A stretch of DNA of 64,000 bases from an uncultured bacterium (GCA_903824675.1 CAIJXV010000083.1:1-64000), one strand, 5' to 3'; counted from the first letter of the stretch, positions 6,183 through 16,617 are shown. Made by a program: numbers and translations. Notes: generated by a model from the sequence alone, not told the origin.

Positions 6183-6248
6183 TTTGCCAATAAATTCATC
6201 AAAGAAAACGGGCTTTCGGGTGTCTAACTTGATGGAGAGCATGAGACC

Positions 6249-6815
6249 ATGACTATTTTGGCCGATGAACAACTCGTAAAGCAATATGTCGAATCGGGCG
6301 AAATGCGCCATTTTGATGAGCTGGTGAATCGGTACGTAAGAAAGGTGCGGGCGATGATTTATCCGATTGTGCTTCACGATGCCGATGCGGATGACCTGAC
6401 TCAGGAGGTGTTTTTGCGCGTCTCCAACGGCTTGTCTCGTTTCCGAGGTGAAGCCCAGTTTTCGACTTGGCTGTATCGTATTGCAATGAATACAACCCAC
6501 GGTTTTCTGCGCCGCAAATCCCGCAATCCGGTAGCGACTTACGAGGACCCGCCAGAGGTGGAGGACGCCATGGCACCGGACTGTCTGGCGATGGCGGGTG
6601 AGTCCGCGGTGTTGGTCGACCGGGCCCTGGCGCGACTCTCGCCAGGCTTGCGGGCTGCGATCACTTTGGTGGTTTTGAACGGCATGAGTGTTTCGGAGGC
6701 CGCGCACGCGGAGGGTTGCCTGACGGCGACGATGTACTGGCGAATTCACGAAGCGCGACGGATTCTAAAAAAAGAATTAGAGAGGAATGAAACCCATGAA
6801 AACAAATCTCGATGA
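6249..6815 (+). CDS. ECF-family RNA polymerase sigma factor
   Basis: Sigma-70-family extracytoplasmic-function factor, 188 residues. Region 2 spans about residues 20-90, with the -10-binding DADDLTQEVFLRV and STWLYRIAMN blocks. Region 4 spans about 125-180, with a helix-turn-helix around MSVSEAAHAEGCLTATMYWRIHEAR binding the -35 box. It heads a run of co-directional genes, most encoding exported proteins. The following gene overlaps its 3' end and encodes a one-membrane-span protein, the classic sigma/anti-sigma arrangement. GGAGAGC lies before the ATG. A candidate ECF promoter 66 bases upstream suggests autoregulation. The signal sensed is not evident. Confidence 0.93.
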   Translation: MTILADEQLVKQYVESGEMRHFDELVNRYVRKVRAMIYPIVLHDADADDLTQEVFLRVSNGLSRFRGEAQFSTWLYRIAMNTTHGFLRRKSRNPVATYEDPPEVEDAMAPDCLAMAGESAVLVDRALARLSPGLRAAITLVVLNGMSVSEAAHAEGCLTATMYWRIHEARRILKKELERNETHENKSR

Positions 6816-7566
6816 TCGACTGATGCAATGGGCATCTTTCAAAGCCCCTTCCAGAAAACATGTGGCGGAGTTGACGCGGAGGATTACACGGGAAGCACGG
6901 TACGCCCGCCACGAGGTGCAAGCGGTGGTAGAAAAACCGGGTTCGGTTCCCGGCTGGAGCAAGTTGGCCTATGCGGGACTTGGCGCCGGGGTGACCTGCT
7001 TGGTCTTGGTGCTGGCGGGTCTGGTGTTCCTGCCGCGCAGAAATCCCGAGGAGAACGGGTTCACCGCCTTAGTGGGGATTTCGGCCGAGCAACGTGCGTC
7101 CCAAGGCAGACTCTTCAGCGAGATGAACCGGATGTTTACGGAGGGATTGCGTTGGGTGGTCCAGTCGGGCGGTGAGGTGGGAATAGGGTTGGATACCGTG
7201 CCGGTGGCCCGCGAGCGCGACACGCCCCCCCTGTTGGTGCGGGTCACGGTTCTGGCCCGGTCTGAAGGGGAGACGACCTGGCGGCAGGCTTGGAGTGCGG
7301 ATATGATGGTGCATGATCAGGATATTGTGGAGGTGGCTCCGGATCCTCGATCGAACAATACGCTGGCCGTGTGGGTCTATGCGCTTGAGGACGGCAAGCT
7401 GGCTGTTGATACCCAAGTGGCTCTAACCCTGCCGGTGGCATTGACGTCCCGGCTCAACACGGTGGTAACACGGGGTCTGCCGACCGAAATCGCTGCGACA
7501 CGAACCCGCGGCGTGGAGTACCGTATCTTTCAGACGGTGGATACGGTCAATGCGTCCCGGAGCTAA
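6796..7566 (+). CDS. Single-span membrane protein, putative anti-sigma factor
   Basis: The 256-residue product has a charged cytoplasmic N-terminus (about 1-55), one membrane helix (about 58-78, LAYAGLGAGVTCLVLVLAGLVF) and a larger outer domain. Its position directly after, and overlapping, the ECF sigma gene is the main reason for calling it an anti-sigma factor. No zinc HxxxCxxC anti-sigma motif is visible in the N-terminal part, so any sigma-binding domain would be of another type. The start at 6796 is preferred because GAGAGG lies about 10 bases ahead; ATG 6787 is too close to it. The outer domain, about 180 residues, is unrecognised. Confidence 0.6.
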   Translation: MKTNLDDRLMQWASFKAPSRKHVAELTRRITREARYARHEVQAVVEKPGSVPGWSKLAYAGLGAGVTCLVLVLAGLVFLPRRNPEENGFTALVGISAEQRASQGRLFSEMNRMFTEGLRWVVQSGGEVGIGLDTVPVARERDTPPLLVRVTVLARSEGETTWRQAWSADMMVHDQDIVEVAPDPRSNNTLAVWVYALEDGKLAVDTQVALTLPVALTSRLNTVVTRGLPTEIAATRTRGVEYRIFQTVDTVNASRS

Positions 7567-7569
7567 GCC

Positions 7570-8619
7570 ATGAACAAGATTAATTACTTCCATTGTTTAA
7601 TGTCCATCGGGTACGGGACGGCGCTTCTCCTGGTGCCGGTCCTTGCCGTTGGGCGGGGGATGGAGGGAGTGAGTTTGACACCCGAGGAGCATTGGTCGAA
7701 TTTGACTGGGGGTAAGGAGGCCATTTTTCACTATAGAGTCCAGGCGGAATCCGCTTATGAATGCCGTTTGGGATGGCTTTTATCGGCGGCCAGTCGTCCG
7801 CTGGCTCGGGGTGAAAAAACCGTGAATGTTTCTCCTGGAAACCCCCAGGTTGTGGAAATTCGAGTTCCAGTTCCGCCGGTTCGTGAAGGGGTTGTGTTGG
7901 CGACCGACCTATCCGTGACGTTGTGTCAGGATCGTTCGGCGGGCGTGGAGACGAACGTGACCCGGCGCCTTTGGGTGTTTTCGGAAAATCCTCTGGCCGA
8001 TCGTCTCGCGTGGTTGAAGACCCTCGATCTGCGGCTCTTCGATCCCGCGAAAAAGACGGCGGAAGCGTTTACCCGGGCGGGGATCCCATTCAAAACCGTG
8101 CCGACGTTGGACGTTGTGCCGTCGTTCCCTTCAAGCGTTGTGGTGATCGGGGAAGGTGTCTCGGCTCGGAACTATCGCGGCCTGGGGGACGTCATGGCCC
8201 GTGCGATGGCGGCGGGTGTCCCCATTCTCTGCCTGTCCGTAACCGAGGGAACGGTCAAACTCCCGGGGTTGGGCGAGACTGCTGAAAAGCCCGACGAGAT
8301 TTACTTTCGGCGCAATGCGGTGATCCGGGAGATGGACCCGCGGCTGGACGATGTAGTCTGGCCGCCGGACGGACGGATCGTGATCGGAGGTTTTCAGATT
8401 AAGGGTGAACGCGGACCCATTGTTGCCGAGGCCGTGCCGGCCGGACAAGGCTGGCCCTGGCTCGAGATCCGCCAAGGAGAGCGGGGCCGGATAGTTTTAT
8501 GCGGTTTCGGGATCGTGTCGAAGTGGGATGCCGGTCCGACAGCGAAGTGTCTGTTGGCGGCGATTTTAGAACGTTTGGCCGGCTTACCGGCTGACACAAC
8601 AAACAAAGCGAAGGAGTAG
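7570..8619 (+). CDS. Exported protein of unknown function
   Basis: A 349-residue protein with a signal peptide (hydrophobic residues about 10-26) ending near LAVG. The N-terminal half looks beta-rich. The C-terminal half contains alternating beta/alpha stretches such as SSVVVIGEG, GVPILCLSVTEG and GRIVLCGFG, resembling a Rossmann-like or amidotransferase-like fold without recognisable catalytic residues. Not assigned to a family by eye. It starts 3 bases after the putative anti-sigma gene and ends 4 bases before the CsgG-like gene, so it belongs to the same transcript. Confidence 0.7.
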   Translation: MNKINYFHCLMSIGYGTALLLVPVLAVGRGMEGVSLTPEEHWSNLTGGKEAIFHYRVQAESAYECRLGWLLSAASRPLARGEKTVNVSPGNPQVVEIRVPVPPVREGVVLATDLSVTLCQDRSAGVETNVTRRLWVFSENPLADRLAWLKTLDLRLFDPAKKTAEAFTRAGIPFKTVPTLDVVPSFPSSVVVIGEGVSARNYRGLGDVMARAMAAGVPILCLSVTEGTVKLPGLGETAEKPDEIYFRRNAVIREMDPRLDDVVWPPDGRIVIGGFQIKGERGPIVAEAVPAGQGWPWLEIRQGERGRIVLCGFGIVSKWDAGPTAKCLLAAILERLAGLPADTTNKAKE

Positions 8620-8623
8620 TGTC

Positions 8624-9583
8624 ATGAAAAGTCGACTATTAATGACGGTGTTGGCGCTGGGTTTGATCGGACAGGCGGGGCTACAGGCGGCGAACGATGT
8701 GCCTGCTGCCGGACGGAAAGTGGTTCCGGCCGCGATATTTGCGTTCGAGGAACGAGGTGCGGGTGTCAAGGATTACGGGCAGAAGGTCAGCGATATCCTG
8801 TTTGCGTCGCTGGTCGTCGATCCGAATCTGGTGTTGGTGGATCGCGCCGAGATGTCGAGGATTCTGGATGAGTTGTCGCTCAACCTGAGTGGAGCCGTTA
8901 CCCCGAGCCAGGCGGTGAAAGTGGGTCAACTTACGGGCGCGCGGGTCCTGGTGGCGGGCTCCGTCATTGAAGCGGACCAGGCGATCTACCTGGTGGCAAA
9001 GATTATTGGAACGGAAACCGGTCGGGTATTGGGTCAGTCCGTAAAAGGCAAGATGGGCGATGAAATAGGACCGCTGGCAGAAGAGTTGGCCAAGAAGATT
9101 GCTGCGACTTTGGAGGAGCAGAGTGGCGTCCTGGTGGCGGCGGAGGTGAAACCGGAAGCCCGCCTCGCCACGTTGAAAACGGAATTAGGCGACGCCAAGC
9201 GCCCGGTGGTTATGATTCGGGTCGTCGAGCGGCATGTCGGGGGGGCGGCGATTGATCCGGCGGCACAGACGGAACTGGCCCTGATTTGCCGGGAAGCGGG
9301 GTTTGAGGTTTTGGATGCGCAAACAAAGAACTCCCAGAAGGCAGACGTGATCCTCGAAGGGGAAGGTTTCAGTGAACTGGCCTTGCAGCGGGGGAATTTG
9401 GTGAGTGTGAAGGCGCGGTTGGAAATCAAGGCCGTGGATCGTGCGACGGATAAGGTTCTTGCGGTGGATCGGCAGACCGTGGTCATGGTCGACCTGAGCG
9501 AGCAGATTGCCGGCAAGGCGGCGTTACAGGAAGCGGCGGCGGCCATTGCGATGAGACTGTTGCCCAAGATTGTTGTAAAGTAA
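8624..9583 (+). CDS. Exported CsgG-like protein
   Basis: A 319-residue protein with a signal peptide cleaved near LQA. Residues about 35-165 match the CsgG/TolB-N type fold: a strand 'AIFAFEERG', a pair 'DILFASLVVDPNLVLVDR', the helix with 'RILDEL' and then 'GARVLVAGSVIE'. This fold is shared by curli secretion channel CsgG, PBP activator LpoB and FlgO. The second half (about 190-315) looks like a repeat of a similar alpha/beta unit. There is no lipobox, so it is not a CsgG-type lipoprotein channel in the strict sense. It probably acts in the periplasm as an assembly or scaffolding factor. A strong hairpin terminator follows directly. Confidence 0.68.
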   Translation: MKSRLLMTVLALGLIGQAGLQAANDVPAAGRKVVPAAIFAFEERGAGVKDYGQKVSDILFASLVVDPNLVLVDRAEMSRILDELSLNLSGAVTPSQAVKVGQLTGARVLVAGSVIEADQAIYLVAKIIGTETGRVLGQSVKGKMGDEIGPLAEELAKKIAATLEEQSGVLVAAEVKPEARLATLKTELGDAKRPVVMIRVVERHVGGAAIDPAAQTELALICREAGFEVLDAQTKNSQKADVILEGEGFSELALQRGNLVSVKARLEIKAVDRATDKVLAVDRQTVVMVDLSEQIAGKAALQEAAAAIAMRLLPKIVVK

Positions 9584-9600
9584 GATTAGAATGGGGAATT

Positions 9601-9625
9601 GGCGGCGGGGCTTCCCGCCGCCTTT
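9601..9625 (+). terminator. Intrinsic terminator after CsgG-like gene
   Basis: A 9-bp perfect GC stem (GGCGGCGGG / CCCGCCGCC) with a GCTT loop and a short T run, 17 bases after the stop codon at 9583. It divides the block into two transcription units, consistent with the new promoter at 9680. Confidence 0.65.
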
Positions 9626-9679
9626 CCGCTGGAAAAGCTGGAACCATCCTGAAATTCGCCTGTATTTGAGAAATCGAAT

Positions 9680-9708
9680 GGAACTTTTTCGGTTCGACAA
9701 GGGTCTAA
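9680..9708 (+). promoter_or_regulatory. ECF/sigma-E-type promoter before CsgG/TPR gene
   Basis: GGAACTT (9680-9686), a 16-base spacer, then GTCTAA (9703-9708), which matches the classical sigma-E consensus boxes in full. A GACGAC-AGC-GTCGTC dyad (9712-9726) lies just after the -10 box. The gene starts 73 bases downstream at 9782. Recognition by the sigma factor encoded at 6249 is inferred. Confidence 0.6.
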
Positions 9709-9781
9709 CCCGACGACAGCGTCGTCCTCGTCAGAAGAATCGTTAGGGCACCCGCCCGTGACCGATAATGGGAGGTATGAA

Positions 9782-12700
9782 TTGAAAAACAACGCAGGAT
9801 GGGGTGCAATATGGCGGCGTTTTGCCTGTTGGGGCATGGCCGGTCTGGTTGTCGTATCCGTCGCGATGCCCATTTCCAGCGCCGAGACCGCCCGCCCGTC
9901 GGTTGCAATTCTTCAATTTTCATGTTCAGCGACGGATTTGGCTTGGGCCGGGAAAGCACTGCCAGACCTGATCACGACTCGGTTGAGTGGCGAAGCCATC
10001 CTGCAGGTTCTCGATCGGGATTTTATCCAGAGCGTTCTGACGGAACAAGGGTTGGGCGCGAACGGATTTATGGCGCCGGGTTCTCTGGTAGTGGGCAAAC
10101 TGCGCCTGGCAGATTTCCTGGTCTTTGGGGAAGTGGCCACGGGCGCCGAAGAAGACATTCTGACCCTGCGTATTATCCGGTCGGCCACCGGCACGATCGA
10201 AAAGACGGTGACGATAAAAGGGAAACTGCCCAAGGCGATGGATGCCATGGTGGAATCGGCGGCCGTTGCGATAGCTGAAATCACTGGCGGGGTTAAACCT
10301 GCGGCGGTGAGGAATGATTTTCGCCTGGAACGAGTTCCCGAGTCCCTTGAATCCTTTTATCGGGGGATGGAATGGTGTGCCCTGCGTCGTCCCTTGCGGG
10401 CCGCGCCCCATTTTCTGGAGGCCGCCAAACGCGATCCCCAGTTTGTTCTCGCTCGGATCCGTGAGCGGCAGTGTTATGTGCGGATGGGATTGCCGCGCTT
10501 GGCGGAGGAAGCGGAACGGGCCTTGCCGGGCAAGACTATCGAATTGGCCGGGCTACCCAACTCCTCCAACCAGACCCCGGCGGTCATTCTGGTCCGAGTC
10601 TCTGCCGGTGCTGGCGTGGATCCGGCCATGGTAGCGGAAGTACGCAATGCCGTGGAACAGGCGGTGACGGCCAGTGGAATACGCCTGGCCGGACGGGACG
10701 CCGTCGTCTCTCGCACGGACGAATTGGATTTGACGTTGGGCGGCAAGTTCGAGCCGAAACAGGTACCAGCTTATCGAGCGCTGGTGGTCGCGACCCATGC
10801 GCTGGCCGTCACATTGACCCCCCGTGCCGACGGAGAGATCATGATCACGGGCGTTTTATCCGACATGTTTACCGGTCAGGCCCGGGAAACCGGGAGTGAG
10901 CAGGTGTCTGTGCCGCGACTTGTTGACGCGGCTACGAGTCAGACCAGACGTTTATGCCAGGCGACGGTTGCCACAACCGCCGCTTCGGTGCTGACCCCGG
11001 AGGAGGCCATTGGGACCAGTTGGAAAACACCCGATGACGTATTCCGGGATCAACAAGCTGTTTCTGAAGTGGATAAGGCCGGACTCTTGCTGGAGATGCT
11101 GATGCAGCGGCCATGGGACCGGGAGGTGTTTGGCCGCCTGGTTGGCGATTTGCCCTATGGTGCCCAGTGGTGGGTAGAGGCCCTGTCACAGACCGTGCTG
11201 GATCGTTTACAACCGGAGAGTTTGGAGAAGGCGCAAATGATGGTGCTCCTCTGCAGTCCCGGGTTTCGCATCCAGGCCGGAAACAAGGATATGAACAGAA
11301 GCCGCACCGGTTTCCGGGCTGACGATCGGACCATGAAACTCTTCGAGGAGATAGCCCAGCGTTATCCCGGCACCTCTGTGGCGGCCGACTGCCAATTTCG
11401 AATCGGGTGCTGGCAGCGGGATCGAGGCGAGTTCGAGGCTGCGGCGATCAGTTTTGGAAAGGCCGAAGCCGAGTATCGCCAGTTGATGGCCGACACGGAT
11501 TCCTTATGTCCAGTTCAGTTCAAGTCCAGGTTTTCGACAGAGGAACGACTCCGGTATGAGCAGTCGATACTGAAGGGCTATGTGCTCTCCTGCGCCAGTA
11601 TGCTGTATCATCAGGGGCTCACCTGGCAGGAATCCGGTAAGACGGAGGAAGCCAGTCGGGCTTTCGCGGAGGCGTGGATGCTGGCCGACGCCTACTCCAT
11701 TTCCCGAGCGGAGGTCATGCGATCTGCCGGGGTAACGAAGGCAGGGAAAACCGGGAAAACGGTTCCCGCTTCTGTTTATTTGGAATTCGATTTGCGAACG
11801 GCCATGGCCGGAGCGCAAGCGAAATTCTCAGATAGGTTTGTGGCGGGTGCGGAGGCCTATGTGCACTCGGACTTTGAAACCGCTTTCGATGCCTGGAGCG
11901 AGGTTGCTACCCAAGCGGAGCACCCGGTCCTCGTGGTTATGGCAGGCCGGAATATCCTTCTCGGAATGTCGTTTTTTTCGATGGAACGCAGACAACCGGT
12001 CGCAGAACCGTTCCTGTGCGCCCTTCCGGCCGCGCTTGAACAAGGCCGATGTTTGAGCTTGCGCGATTTCGAAAAAGCGGTGTCAGCTGCCGTGTATTTA
12101 CTCGGGGAAGACCCGAAACAGGCTGCGGGTATGAGTCAGACCTTGGCTAAGCTCGAAGGGGTCTATGCCAAGCACAGTCCTGATGACCGTCGGGGGCCGG
12201 TCACACTGGCCCGGCTCTATTTGGATTGCCGGCTATACGAGGACTGCATCCGGCTTTGTGATGAAGTCACGCGCCCGGGGCCAGCGGCTTGCCCTAATCC
12301 AAAATATTTCTGGGAAGTGATATCCCTATGCGCCAAGGCCATCCGCGCCTCGAAAGGTGTTGATGCACAATTGGCCTACCAGAAGAAATGGGCGGGAATC
12401 AAGGAGCCGGCCGATGCGCAACTCCTGGGTGATATCTTTTTTGTGGAGGCGGTAAAAGGGATTGCGGATGCCTTCAAGGCGGAGGGTCGAATCGCGGAAG
12501 CTGCTGCGCTTTATGAGAAATTGACACACGCCTACGAAAATAGCCCGGTGCCGGATAACTGGAAGGGGATCGATCCAAACTGGACCTTACCCGTGGCCAC
12601 GATGCGCTTCGGCTGCATGATGCACTGGGCGGAGTGTCTGGAAGCCATGAAGGACATCGATGGTGCTGTATTTCTCTATAAACGCGTGGCCCGCGAATGC

Positions 12701-12820
12701 GATGGGCGCGACATCCAGAGGCCGGATAGTCAAGGCCCGCTGGACAAGGTTGCCGGGAAGCGGTTGGAAGCTCTCCGTGCCCGGCAGGAACAGACGCGGA
12801 CGAGTGGGGAAAGCAAATGA
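9782..12820 (+). CDS. Large exported CsgG-like/TPR-repeat protein
   Basis: A 1012-residue protein. A signal peptide (residues about 12-35, cleaved near SSA) is followed by a CsgG/TolB-like domain (about 38-170: VAILQFSCS, DLITTRLSG, VLDRDFIQSVL, DFLVFGEVATG). A second, related domain at about 270-400 starts with VILVRVSAGAG. The remainder is helical with TPR-like spacing (for example LFEEIAQRYPGTSVAADCQF and AAALYEKLTHAYENSP), suggesting protein-protein scaffolding in the periplasm. The start is TTG 9782 because GGGAGG at 9770-9775 lies 6 bases ahead; the in-frame GTG 9758 lacks one and would extend the N-terminus. The lipoprotein gene overlaps its stop by 4 bases. Confidence 0.72.
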   Translation: MKNNAGWGAIWRRFACWGMAGLVVVSVAMPISSAETARPSVAILQFSCSATDLAWAGKALPDLITTRLSGEAILQVLDRDFIQSVLTEQGLGANGFMAPGSLVVGKLRLADFLVFGEVATGAEEDILTLRIIRSATGTIEKTVTIKGKLPKAMDAMVESAAVAIAEITGGVKPAAVRNDFRLERVPESLESFYRGMEWCALRRPLRAAPHFLEAAKRDPQFVLARIRERQCYVRMGLPRLAEEAERALPGKTIELAGLPNSSNQTPAVILVRVSAGAGVDPAMVAEVRNAVEQAVTASGIRLAGRDAVVSRTDELDLTLGGKFEPKQVPAYRALVVATHALAVTLTPRADGEIMITGVLSDMFTGQARETGSEQVSVPRLVDAATSQTRRLCQATVATTAASVLTPEEAIGTSWKTPDDVFRDQQAVSEVDKAGLLLEMLMQRPWDREVFGRLVGDLPYGAQWWVEALSQTVLDRLQPESLEKAQMMVLLCSPGFRIQAGNKDMNRSRTGFRADDRTMKLFEEIAQRYPGTSVAADCQFRIGCWQRDRGEFEAAAISFGKAEAEYRQLMADTDSLCPVQFKSRFSTEERLRYEQSILKGYVLSCASMLYHQGLTWQESGKTEEASRAFAEAWMLADAYSISRAEVMRSAGVTKAGKTGKTVPASVYLEFDLRTAMAGAQAKFSDRFVAGAEAYVHSDFETAFDAWSEVATQAEHPVLVVMAGRNILLGMSFFSMERRQPVAEPFLCALPAALEQGRCLSLRDFEKAVSAAVYLLGEDPKQAAGMSQTLAKLEGVYAKHSPDDRRGPVTLARLYLDCRLYEDCIRLCDEVTRPGPAACPNPKYFWEVISLCAKAIRASKGVDAQLAYQKKWAGIKEPADAQLLGDIFFVEAVKGIADAFKAEGRIAEAAALYEKLTHAYENSPVPDNWKGIDPNWTLPVATMRFGCMMHWAECLEAMKDIDGAVFLYKRVARECDGRDIQRPDSQGPLDKVAGKRLEALRARQEQTRTSGESK

Positions 12821-13119
12821 AAAAGGCGCGAAGTCTAAAAGATATGCCAATAGTAGTCATCTTCGTCACTCTGATATGGATCGGGCTGGGGTGCCAGCCC
12901 AAACAGGTGGATCGGCACCTCGAGCTGGTGAATCTGCAACAACTGGATTCTGGATCCTTCACCTTTGAGGAGAAGAAGGGGACGATCTGGGTAACGGTGA
13001 TAGACAAGTTCAACGATGCCCACATTCATAATTTGAACTACGCAGGGTACACCCGAGAACAAGTAACAGACATTTTGAAAAAGAAGCAGAAAGATCTTCA
13101 AGAGAAGGGATTGAAATAA
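12817..13119 (+). CDS. Small lipoprotein of unknown function
   Basis: A 100-residue protein with a basic N-terminus, a hydrophobic segment (about 11-24) and a lipobox IGLGC, placing the lipidated cysteine near residue 26. The mature part is small and hydrophilic (ends in a lysine-rich helix) and is not recognised. The start overlaps the previous stop (ATGA) and the stop shares one base with the next start (TAATG), so translation is probably coupled on both sides. It may anchor or accompany the large CsgG/TPR protein, but this rests only on gene order. Confidence 0.7.
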   Translation: MKKARSLKDMPIVVIFVTLIWIGLGCQPKQVDRHLELVNLQQLDSGSFTFEEKKGTIWVTVIDKFNDAHIHNLNYAGYTREQVTDILKKKQKDLQEKGLK

Positions 13120-13769
13120 TGAAAGTCCGTCTCACTTTAGTCGGGTGCTTGCTGATTGTACTGGCGACCTGTTTTGTGCAAGCCGGCGAAATCAACAAGG
13201 AAATCCGGACCCAGGCGGCGACGCTTTATGGAGAACAGGCGAAACGCTTGAAATCCGAGATCAGCGTGATTTACGCCTATGAAGTGTCGGAACGGGTGAA
13301 AAGATTTTGTAAGCCCTGGCAATTTTATCGCGTGGGGATTCCGGTTCCTGATGAAGGCCGAAGCTCGATGACGCCGGGCGTCCTCTACTACAAAATGGCC
13401 GCGGCGGAACAGGCTCTGCCGCTCAATACCTCACACGAAATCGCGGCCTTTTTGTCGGGAATCAAAGCCCCCCTGGCTACCGAAGAAGATGTTCGGGTGA
13501 GAATCGGCGTGTTTGTTGATCTTTTGGGAGGCGAGATTGCCACGAACATGCCGACGCGAGAAAGCCTCTTTGAACAATATAAGAATCTGAAACCGGAGGA
13601 TTGGACGCTGGTGATAAAAGAAACCGATACAGGCTGGCAGATTTATGTGCCCGTGCTAGTCGAAAAGTTTATCGAGCACTATACGGGTTATACACTCGCG
13701 CTCTCACGGGAAGGCAAAATGACTCTGATTCAACACAAAGACCTGTTTTATTACACCATGTATGAATAG
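13119..13769 (+). CDS. Exported protein of unknown function
   Basis: A 216-residue protein with a signal peptide ending near VQA^GE (residue about 22). The mature part is mixed alpha/beta with no recognised motif. It holds one cysteine (RFCKPW). The C-terminal section, with WTLVIKETDTGWQIYVPVLVE-like strands, resembles small exported beta-sandwich proteins, but this is too weak for a family call. Tight coupling to the lipoprotein gene on one side, and only 8 bases to the GTG of the next gene, show membership of the same operon. Confidence 0.65.
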   Translation: MKVRLTLVGCLLIVLATCFVQAGEINKEIRTQAATLYGEQAKRLKSEISVIYAYEVSERVKRFCKPWQFYRVGIPVPDEGRSSMTPGVLYYKMAAAEQALPLNTSHEIAAFLSGIKAPLATEEDVRVRIGVFVDLLGGEIATNMPTRESLFEQYKNLKPEDWTLVIKETDTGWQIYVPVLVEKFIEHYTGYTLALSREGKMTLIQHKDLFYYTMYE

Positions 13770-13777
13770 GAGGCCCT

Positions 13778-14752
13778 GTGAAAAAGATTATATTATTCTT
13801 GATGATGGGGGCGCTGGTTGCCGGTGCTGCGGGATCGAAAGTGATTCCCCCGCGCATGACCGTCCGGCTGTTGATCGAGGATATGCAAAAAGAGCCGATT
13901 CCGACTGAATTATGGCAGTATGCGTTCGATCCGAAAGCCCATTCAGCTCTCACCCCGCTCTCCCGCGATGAACAACTGCAGGCCTTGAAAGGGCTTCGGC
14001 GCGCGGACCTTCAGTTTGATAAAGATGAATATGCCGATGATGATAAAGGACCCCGTTTTGTGATCAAACTGGTGGCGCCCCGGACACTTGAATTTGAGAT
14101 GCAACACGTTGAACTCTCCGGTGAAATTGGTCCGCCGTGGAAATATGTGGTCATCGCCGTTCGCAAAACGGGCACCGCGGTGCCCTTGGCCAAGCCTGAC
14201 AAGAGCAGAACCGTCGGGAAGAAACCGTCAATGGCCGACTGGGTTGGGGAGTACCCTTTGGATCTCGAGCGGTCCAAGGGATTGGTGGATCACCCCAATA
14301 TCCTTAAGGACGTTCGCCTGATTATTCGACCGGACCTGAACATCGAGTGGGGTGGGGGCAAACGGAATGACCTCACGCTGGTTAAGGATTTGGACGCGAA
14401 CGGAATAGCCTTTTACTCCCGCAGTGAGGGGCTGCCGGGAAATCAGCAGTTGGTGATACTGGATCCTGCTGGTTATATTGAAATCAATGATTATTTTTTT
14501 AAAGTCAAGCCCCCCTTCACGCCGCCTGAGCCGGTGACGGGTGATGAAGCCGCCGTGGCGTTGGCCCGCGTCTGGCTGAAGGCCCAGTCGCAGGCGGATC
14601 AGTACATCCTCAATGATCCGAAAGCTAGCCAGACGACGAACGAGTGGCGCGTGTATTTTCGGCATGTGAATTGGCAGAACCAAAAACCGAGTACCGGCTT
14701 GGTTATCGTGGATAAGATTTCCGGCAAAGCTCGGTGGGGTGTCCAGGAGTGA
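13778..14752 (+). CDS. Exported protein of unknown function
   Basis: A 324-residue protein that begins with GTG, preceded by AGGAGG at 13768-13773. A short signal peptide (residues about 3-18) ends near AGA. The mature protein is hydrophilic with a predicted beta-rich centre (about 170-230). Its C-terminal part (about 255-324) contains 'VALARVWLKAQSQ' and a closing 'STGLVIVDKISGKARWG', reminiscent of exported repeat or PepSY-like modules. No catalytic motif was seen. It is part of the same operon as the preceding genes, with the beta-helix protein starting 44 bases later. Confidence 0.65.
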   Translation: MKKIILFLMMGALVAGAAGSKVIPPRMTVRLLIEDMQKEPIPTELWQYAFDPKAHSALTPLSRDEQLQALKGLRRADLQFDKDEYADDDKGPRFVIKLVAPRTLEFEMQHVELSGEIGPPWKYVVIAVRKTGTAVPLAKPDKSRTVGKKPSMADWVGEYPLDLERSKGLVDHPNILKDVRLIIRPDLNIEWGGGKRNDLTLVKDLDANGIAFYSRSEGLPGNQQLVILDPAGYIEINDYFFKVKPPFTPPEPVTGDEAAVALARVWLKAQSQADQYILNDPKASQTTNEWRVYFRHVNWQNQKPSTGLVIVDKISGKARWGVQE

Positions 14753-14796
14753 TCTAGGGGCGGGACTGTGGCGGAAACAAATGGAGCAAACGAAAC

Positions 14797-16011
14797 ATGA
14801 ATACGAGGTGCCGGACCACATGTCTGGTGGCTTGCCTGGGGGTGAGCCTGATTGCGAACTGCGCCCGGGCGGCGGAAGGATTTGAGGCCTATGTGGACCC
14901 GATTCGGGGCAATGACAACAATTCGGGAACCAAGTCATCCCCGCTGAAAACGGTCAGCGCGGCAATCGAAAAAGTGCCTGAATTGGTCGCGGCCGCGATC
15001 TCTGTTCACCTCGCACCGGGGGTCTATAAGACCACTGGCGCCAAGGGCATGCCCGCCAGTCTGTTGATCCTGGATCGTAAAATGCGGAGGGAAGGGGATA
15101 ATCGAATCGATATTTCAGTCCATATCATTGGCGAAGGCAGGAATTTCGAGGGGGCAGCCAAACCGGGCGAGGTCATTCTGGACTGGGGAACCGGCTTGCA
15201 AATTCAGGTTGATAACGGGATTTGGAACCTTGAGAACGTTCAGATCGGAAACCGTTCCTACAAGGGAACCCAGCAGGGAATCATCGTTTCGGGCTCCAGC
15301 AGTCTGGTCCATTTGCGAAATGTTCGAATCCGGACGACGAGTCTGTCCGGGTGTGGCATAGGCGCCATACGGGGGGGCGAGGTGCAGTTGCACGGCCGCA
15401 TTGAGTTGAATGAGGATTTGCATGACCAAGCACCGGAGAATTCTTTCTGTGGGATCAGCGCTTCTTATAATGGCACTGTCCGATGGAACGATTCATCCGG
15501 AGTACTGTCCATGGGGAATGGGTCCCTGAGCGCGGGCTATTTTGGAGTGATCGAATTGGGCTGCAAAACGGCACGGATCACCTCCTGGGGTCGGCAGTCG
15601 AACAATCTGGCCATCAATGATTCCGGACGGATTGATTTGCACGGGACCGAGACGACCCTCTGTTCGAAGCACAAGGAGAATACGCTCATTGGATTGGAGG
15701 ACGACGGGCATATTCTGGCGGAAGGCGCGAAGATCATTCTCGAGACGGAGCCGGACTTTCCCGGCTATATTGTTCTTCAGAAAGCCAGTACACTCTATGT
15801 TGGAACCTTTATCATCCATGGGAATAGCGGCGTGAACTTTTCGGCTTCGAGTGGATCCAGTTTGATGGGCGCCGTTGAGGGGAAGGTGGGGCAGGTGGGG
15901 GCCGAGACGGGATCGTATATCGCCTTGTGGTGTTCACAAAAACCAGAGAGCATCAATGAGTCAAAGCATGGGATGGTTGATATTCAGGTTGCGCCTGCGG
16001 TGGGTCGATAA
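14797..16011 (+). CDS. Exported right-handed beta-helix protein
   Basis: A 404-residue protein with a signal peptide cleaved near ARA. The start of the mature part, AYVDPIRGNDNNSGTKSSP with LKTVSAAIE behind it, is the classic N-cap of pectin-lyase-fold exported proteins (DUF1565-type). The following 320 residues show repeating short strands rich in G, N and S, as in parallel beta-helices. No lyase active-site pattern can be identified, so it could be an adhesin or structural protein as easily as an enzyme. Placed last among the intact genes of the ECF-headed block. Confidence 0.75.
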   Translation: MNTRCRTTCLVACLGVSLIANCARAAEGFEAYVDPIRGNDNNSGTKSSPLKTVSAAIEKVPELVAAAISVHLAPGVYKTTGAKGMPASLLILDRKMRREGDNRIDISVHIIGEGRNFEGAAKPGEVILDWGTGLQIQVDNGIWNLENVQIGNRSYKGTQQGIIVSGSSSLVHLRNVRIRTTSLSGCGIGAIRGGEVQLHGRIELNEDLHDQAPENSFCGISASYNGTVRWNDSSGVLSMGNGSLSAGYFGVIELGCKTARITSWGRQSNNLAINDSGRIDLHGTETTLCSKHKENTLIGLEDDGHILAEGAKIILETEPDFPGYIVLQKASTLYVGTFIIHGNSGVNFSASSGSSLMGAVEGKVGQVGAETGSYIALWCSQKPESINESKHGMVDIQVAPAVGR

Positions 16012-16089
16012 CCCGTGAAGATACCTTCTTCGGGTATTCAAAGCGCCCAAAGACGCTGGAAATGGGGATAGACAAAAAAAGAGAGTAAC

Positions 16090-16617
16090 GTGAGCGAGTG
16101 CATGAGTTGGGGCGGATTAGCCATCGGGTCTCTGGTCGTTGCGGTTTCGTGTGCCCTGTCGGTCCAGGCCAGAGAGGGTCAACGCCAGGAGCGTCAGCGT
16201 CCGGCTTGCCAAATCGAACAGTTTCGGTTCGTTGGGAACCATGCGGATTGCGTTGGTCCGGGGAGACAGGAATCGCCGAACGGGGTTCCCGATGGGCACC
16301 TCCAACTCACGTTATCTGCGCCAACGGGTGTGGCAATCTAGTCGATCATGATCACATTGGCCAGTGGCGGGCGCTGGTCCTGGCCCGACCCGAGCAGTTG
16401 GGCAATCGGGTTTTACACCGAAGGGCAGAAAATCGCCTCTGATGCAGAGGGGATGATCGTGTAGTTCGAGGGAGAAAAACTACTCAACTTGTATATTGAG
16501 CCGATTCCCAGCCGTTTCTTCGGCACCGGCGATGAGTTCTAGATCGTCGTCCGGTTGGCAGACGATTCTATGTTGGTGTCGCACTGCCAAGTGCTCTGGA
16601 AAAACCTTGCCCCATGA
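16090..16617 (+). pseudogene. Decayed exported protein gene with three in-frame TAG codons
   Basis: Frame 1 from the GTG at 16090 stays coherent to a TGA at 16615-16617 except for TAG at 16339, 16462 and 16540. The reading begins with a signal peptide (ending SVQA). It continues with NGVPDGHLQLTLSAP, WAIGFYTEG, LLNLYIEP and FFGTGDEF, which reads like one continuous beta-domain. No frameshift is needed. TAG is used as a normal stop elsewhere in the window (for example at 8617, 29541 and 48534), so decay is more likely than recoding. The undamaged length would be about 175 residues. The function is unknown. Confidence 0.55.

Follow-up and report, generated by a model that had tools for sequence, protein, structure and literature searches.

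Gene content of the block

We analysed a window of 64,000 nt from an uncultured bacterium (GCA_903824675.1, CAIJXV010000083.1:1-64000; all coordinates are counted from the window's start), in which a sequence-only reading had described a block at 6249-16617 of ten co-directional genes, one of them decayed. An ORF survey of the window re-found all ten on the + strand between 6249 and approximately 16617. The block opens with an ECF sigma factor of 188 aa that belongs to a cassette-specific subgroup (6249-6815), preceded by a putative autoregulatory promoter recognised with a learned two-block motif (6199-6229); its ORF shares 29 nt with that of a single-span anti-sigma factor of 259 aa (6787-7566). 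Downstream lie g349, which encodes an exported protein of 349 aa (7570-8619), a gene for a CsgG-like exported protein of 319 aa (8624-9583), and a gene for a large exported CsgG-domain/TPR protein of at most 1020 aa, whose start codon is uncertain (about 9758-12820). These are followed by a lipoprotein-like ORF of 100 aa with an imperfect lipobox, GLGC (12817-13119), two exported proteins of 216 aa (13119-13769) and 324 aa (13778-14752), an exported beta-helix-like surface protein (14797-16011), and a broken ORF (about 16090-16617) that has a signal-peptide-like start and 83 open codons before a stop, and is probably a decayed gene. Each protein encoded after the anti-sigma factor carries an N-terminal hydrophobic segment.

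Pfam matches agree with the sequence-only reading on an ECF sigma factor at the head of the block (Sigma70_r2 at 4.7e-15 and r4_2 at 4.7e-7; the protein comprises the sigma2 and sigma4 domains and no others), on two CsgG-like proteins of which one bears a TPR array (CsgG at 7.5e-10, above the cut-off, in the 319-aa protein; CsgG at the N-terminus at 1.5e-4 and TPR_6 at 6.2e-8 in the 1020-aa protein), and on a beta-helix protein (DUF1565 at 1e-5; a match to the NCBIfam LIC10774/LIC10365 surface protein at 1.7e-8 lies below that model's cut-off). No significant Pfam match was obtained for the anti-sigma factor, g349 or the lipoprotein-like, 216-aa and 324-aa products when each was searched as a single sequence. 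An Rfam scan of the window returned zero matches, and scans for housekeeping promoters and terminators stayed at about the level of shuffled sequence.

The block is composite: genes one to five form a conserved cassette, and genes six to ten do not. Both the 216-aa and the 324-aa protein are orphans with zero relatives in 77 related genomes; absent from these genomes and from the related loci alike, they were ruled out as conserved partners. The lipoprotein-like and beta-helix proteins likewise have no match in any related locus. These four accessory genes are lineage-specific riders that probably share the transcript.

Conservation of the cassette

When 84,980 species genomes were scanned with an alignment of the CsgG-like protein, 98 matches resulted. 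The best 80 of these 98 loci, which were kept, come mostly from Kiritimatiellota, Lentisphaerota, Planctomycetota and Verrucomicrobiota, and a few fall outside those phyla (Desulfobacterium-type, Omnitrophota, Gilvimarinus and others); in a sample of the phylum, the CsgG-like family is present at E <1e-30 in 56 of 388 genomes. The five genes recur as sigma, anti-sigma, g349, CsgG-like and large CsgG-TPR in genomes of the four main phyla, and gene order is kept across several phyla at CsgG identities as low as 38%. Where the upstream sequence exceeds 1.5 kb, g349 adjoins the CsgG-like gene in 70 of 71 loci; where it exceeds 3.4 kb, the sigma gene is found within 3.5 kb upstream in 36, and the anti-sigma gene in 37, of 58 loci. 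Of 53 loci, at least 44 encode a protein of at least 700 aa just downstream, 32 of them with a detectable CsgG-like domain; some large downstream partners in other loci carry WD40 or FG-GAP propellers in place of TPRs. The joint neighbourhood that the sequence-only reading had anticipated thus stands for the sigma factor, anti-sigma factor, g349, CsgG-like and CsgG-TPR genes, and falls for the 216- and 324-residue proteins.

The pair of g349 and CsgG-like genes also occurs in Aeoliella straminimaris ICT_H6.2, Kiritimatiellaeota bacterium B1221 and Gilvimarinus sp. 2_MG-2023. At the Gilvimarinus locus (L086, a gammaproteobacterium), g349 and the CsgG-like gene are accompanied by a 1421-aa FG-GAP-repeat partner and no sigma gene, and this isolated occurrence outside the PVC bacteria suggests transfer. 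Copy number varies as well, with two tandem CsgG-like copies in L096 and L100 and six behind g349 in a Verrucomicrobia subdivision 3 genome (L109:3557-10852), where separate copies of the promoter precede the sigma gene and g349.

The sigma/anti-sigma pair is divergent in L095 and lies 4-8 kb off in L096, L109 and L115; in L059 the sigma gene is 4 kb distant and lacks the promoter motif. About one third of the loci have neither sigma gene nor promoter, and in the checked genomes with such a locus no cassette-type sigma was found anywhere else, so that sigma and cassette co-occur. On a tree of the CsgG-like proteins, phylum clustering is far above that of shuffled labels, yet does not strictly follow phylum, and the presence of the sigma requires 12 changes, from which we conclude that it was lost or gained repeatedly.

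A sigma-less set of g349, CsgG-like and CsgG-TPR genes is also present on another contig of this same genome (C9, 5625-17993), where a CsgG-TPR protein of 1265 aa, a g349-like protein of 354 aa and a CsgG-like protein of 326 aa are encoded together with a CsgG-TPR protein of 987 aa and a partner of 1044 aa. The window CsgG-TPR protein shares 45% identity with the 987-aa paralogue. Control of the C9 cassette by the window sigma was considered and rejected, as the regions upstream of its genes hold no convincing motif and the sole high-scoring site is inside a coding region. Together with the sigma-less loci, the C9 cassette indicates that function of the effectors does not require this sigma. 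In the window, a 174-nt gap (9584-9757) separates the CsgG-like gene from the CsgG-TPR gene, and its C9 counterpart measures 154 nt; the window gap could hold a promoter or regulatory element of its own.

Sigma and anti-sigma factors

Against a profile of the cassette subgroup, the window sigma scores 248 bits and the next-best sigma of the same genome 83 bits; cassette sigmas reach 195-256 bits to their own profile, compared with at most 167 for the remaining ECFs of 20 genomes. No account of such a system was found in the searchable literature, although the ECF group classification lay outside this search and the sigma may already be numbered there.

The anti-sigma assignment of the sequence-only reading held up, and the single membrane span is borne out by one hydrophobic segment at residues 64-82; exactly one such span is present in 36 of the 38 family members, with a median start near residue 60. 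The zf-HC2 anti-sigma zinc finger is without a match in the window protein and is kept, at 5.7e-10, in one divergent homologue from Candidatus Euphemobacter (L121:5764-6798), having been lost in nearly all others. As this homologue retains zf-HC2, sequence comparison supports a descent of the family from class I anti-sigma factors. The C-terminal part is a putative periplasmic domain of unassigned fold, and a profile search of the PDB with the anti-sigma factor gave nothing significant. Kinship between this putative sensor domain and g349 was ruled out (hhalign probability 0.6%).

Promoter motif and predicted targets

A two-block motif, tCAAAGATTT and cGTCTAAt with a spacer of 11-12 nt, was learned from the regions upstream of 47 cassette sigma genes; it precedes 46 of them, as a rule at 30-90 nt from the start codon. 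The window site, TCAAAGAAAAC - 11 nt - TGTCTAACT, ends approximately 20 nt before the sigma ATG, with its -35 core (CAAAGA) at 6200-6205 and its -10 core (GTCTAA) at 6222-6227. It scores 23.5 bits, or 22.5 when left out of training, matched by 0 of 100 shuffles; across the set, the leave-one-out median is 22 bits vs a shuffled-region maximum of 13.6, and 41 of the 47 sites remain above all 100 shuffles when left out. ECF promoters classically carry AAC at -35 and CGT at -10 (PMC8103513). The cassette -10 block, cGTCTAAt, fits the classical CGT, and the -35 block, CAAAGATTT, is without the AAC, a typical though not obligatory ECF feature.

In loci whose sigma pair stands apart from the effector genes or runs divergently to them, a copy of the motif is found 35-40 nt ahead of g349 (L116, L095, L098, L115 and also L109), and these sites provide an independent check, their positions not having been used in training. 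With a strict pattern, the window site is the sole match in its 4.24 Mb genome. Over 18 whole genomes the strict pattern gave 29 matches vs 28 for a reversed control, so that the number of matches means nothing and only their placement carries weight. In this respect, 18 of the 29 lie directly before cassette genes, namely 13 sigma genes, 2 g349 genes and 3 large CsgG/TPR genes, two of the last being on other contigs; most of the sigma matches are training-set sites and hence not independent, whereas those before g349 and CsgG/TPR genes are. Because the motif precedes the sigma gene, detached g349 genes and unlinked CsgG/TPR genes, it is well supported that the sigma would drive its own gene together with the g349 and CsgG/TPR effector set, implying a predicted autoregulation of the window promoter. 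In a further genome (G412:C78:34935, L181), a strict match lies approximately 200 nt before the gene of an exported protein that looks secretin-N-like by eye; this possible additional regulon member shares its contig with a CsgG-domain target (L179).

Structure models of the cassette proteins

Pfam CsgG is matched in 75 of 75 members of the CsgG-like family; in the window protein the match spans chain residues 63-133 and covers positions 35-102 of the 210 in the model. The AlphaFold2 model (pLDDT 90.9) consists of two tandem alpha/beta domains of the CsgG/LpoB/PelC type, and its best Foldseek matches are the pre-pore form of CsgG (4uv2, 2.5e-6), LpoB, PelC, LptE and HpaA. The CsgG-like fold of the sequence-only reading therefore held up under structure prediction; the model indicates a CsgG fold, and we do not claim membership of the channel family. 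No transmembrane hairpin insertions are present in this confident model, and the window protein has a signal peptide without lipobox, as is usual for the family (a lipobox-like motif occurs in 8 of 75 members). With the hairpins absent and the lipobox usually missing, a curli-type secretion pore is unlikely.

The model of g349 (pLDDT 90, pTM 0.86) contains an Ig-like beta-sandwich (34-137) and an alpha/beta domain (143-336), and its Foldseek matches are dominated by Ig-type domains. A profile search of the PDB with g349 found nothing significant, and Pfam matches among 44 g349 homologues were weak only (LacZ_4 at 4.5e-4 in two, DUF4350 at 0.012 in one), which leaves the second, alpha/beta domain unassigned.

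Discussion

The cassette seems to be a so far undescribed system of cell-envelope response, and we consider it fairly probable that the block works as a self-amplifying ECF regulon whose products, g349 among them, build a periplasmic CsgG/LpoB-TPR scaffold for envelope maintenance. In the resting state, the single-span anti-sigma factor would keep the sigma at the membrane, until an envelope signal acting on its periplasmic domain releases it. The freed sigma would then recognise promoters of the form tCAAAGATTT-N11/12-cGTCTAAt; its targets would be the operon to which it belongs and, in other genomes, also g349 and CsgG/TPR genes that stand apart. After export, g349 may pair with the two-domain CsgG/LpoB-like protein, and the two, with the large CsgG-TPR or CsgG-propeller proteins, may form a soluble periplasmic or outer-membrane-associated scaffold. 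By analogy with LpoB, PelC, or TolB together with CpoB, such a scaffold would maintain or remodel the envelope and not act as a secretion pore. It is fold resemblance that points to this physiological role: an exported, apparently soluble domain of an often-oligomerising type, with repeat-bearing partners, would fit an envelope scaffold better than a pore. Perhaps the cassette is even a machine dedicated to the PVC envelope, in which a Tol-Pal/Lpo-like scaffold of CsgG-type, g349 and TPR or propeller proteins has its own sigma and a non-classical -35 element, an extension that we put forward tentatively.

Other readings account for part of the same evidence. The Pfam CsgG match in every one of the 75 family members, and the CsgG pre-pore form at the top of the Foldseek matches, could speak for a curli-like or other secretion system, in which the CsgG-like proteins would form an outer-membrane pore whose cargo comprised the beta-helix protein and further exported products of the block; however, the confident model is compact and devoid of transmembrane hairpins, the CsgG match stops short of the pore-forming part, a lipobox-like motif is found in just 8 of 75 members and conservation is lacking for the candidate cargo genes, and we hold this reading to be very improbable. 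Among the roles suggested by the sequence-only reading, secretion is thus the one that fares badly, and envelope stress and assembly remain the most plausible. The large partners with WD40 or FG-GAP propellers, together with the window's beta-helix protein and its kinship to a family of surface proteins, fit a module for surface adhesion or matrix formation, in which the CsgG/TPR/propeller proteins and the beta-helix protein would be displayed for attachment and the sigma would serve as an environmental switch. PelC, a fold relative of the CsgG-like protein, serves Pel polysaccharide export, in line with such a module. Yet the core CsgG-like and g349 proteins resemble soluble exported proteins without an anchor, the surface-type genes are not among the conserved parts, and no polysaccharide-export gene was recognised adjoining the cassette in an unsystematic look, which leaves adhesion unlikely, if the less remote of these two alternatives. 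Lastly, the absence of the sigma from about one third of loci would be expected if the sigma/anti-sigma pair merely neighboured unrelated exported genes and the co-occurrence reflected shared ancestry of a few genomes. That explanation is hardly credible, since several phyla share the gene order even where CsgG identity drops to 38%, and the motif follows effector genes that have moved away from the sigma, which contradicts it.

PVC bacteria have unusual cell envelopes, and to our knowledge few of their envelope-stress pathways are understood. The clear promoter signature and compact conserved effector set of this regulon would offer a direct handle, as the motif predicts regulon targets and named strains carry the g349/CsgG-like pair as a unit. 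Furthermore, the cassette extends the CsgG/LpoB/PelC fold family, known from secretion, wall synthesis and polysaccharide export, by a further branch.

Comparison with known systems

Several characterised systems share individual features with the cassette. The longest listed Foldseek match over both domains of the CsgG-like protein is an LPHT-ring chain (8z5n, 284 columns), which recalls FlgT and the flagellar H-ring; however, the two domains are arranged differently from those of 8z5n (rmsd 14), Pfam FlgT_M matches weakly in 3 of 75 members, and no flagellar genes were seen beside the cassette. From Tol-Pal, the cassette echoes TolB through a TolB-N-like domain (TolB_N at best 0.007, in 3 of 75 CsgG-like members), TolB with CpoB/YbgF through the propeller of some large partners, and CpoB/YbgF through a TPR stretch weakly matching tol_pal_ybgF (1.5e-5; 25.5 vs a cut-off of 90.1 bits); it differs in that scores lie under the family cut-offs and no Tol-Pal neighbours were seen at the cassette. 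The CsgG curli channel shares its fold and Pfam match with the first domain of the CsgG-like protein, but has two transmembrane beta-hairpins per subunit, of which the model has none, and a lipoprotein anchor, for which the window protein has no lipobox; moreover, the CsgG-like protein has a second domain of similar layout, its partners are g349 and the TPR proteins, and none of CsgA/B/E/F was recognised among the window's genes, as judged without a family-model search.

One domain of the CsgG-like protein has LpoB among its closest folds (TM-score 0.69 to 4q6l), and the occurrence of such a domain alongside TPR-like repeats in the cassette resembles LpoB/LpoA. In contrast to these, the CsgG-like protein is not a lipoprotein, has two domains, scores below the LpoB family cut-offs (TIGR02722, 19.4 vs 110.55 bits; Pfam LpoB, 13.3 vs 22.3) and has no identified penicillin-binding partner. 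For regulation, the nearest counterpart is RpoE-RseA (ECF group IV with a class I anti-sigma factor), from which the cassette differs in its -35 element (CAAAGATTT), in the anti-sigma zinc finger, which is mostly lost, and in an effector set for which no description was found. As in RpoE-RseA, the cassette sigma has sigma2 and sigma4 only, the two domains to which the ECF definition was later narrowed (PMC8103513), is neighboured by a single-span anti-sigma factor, and has the cassette promoter before its own gene, implying a predicted positive autoregulation.
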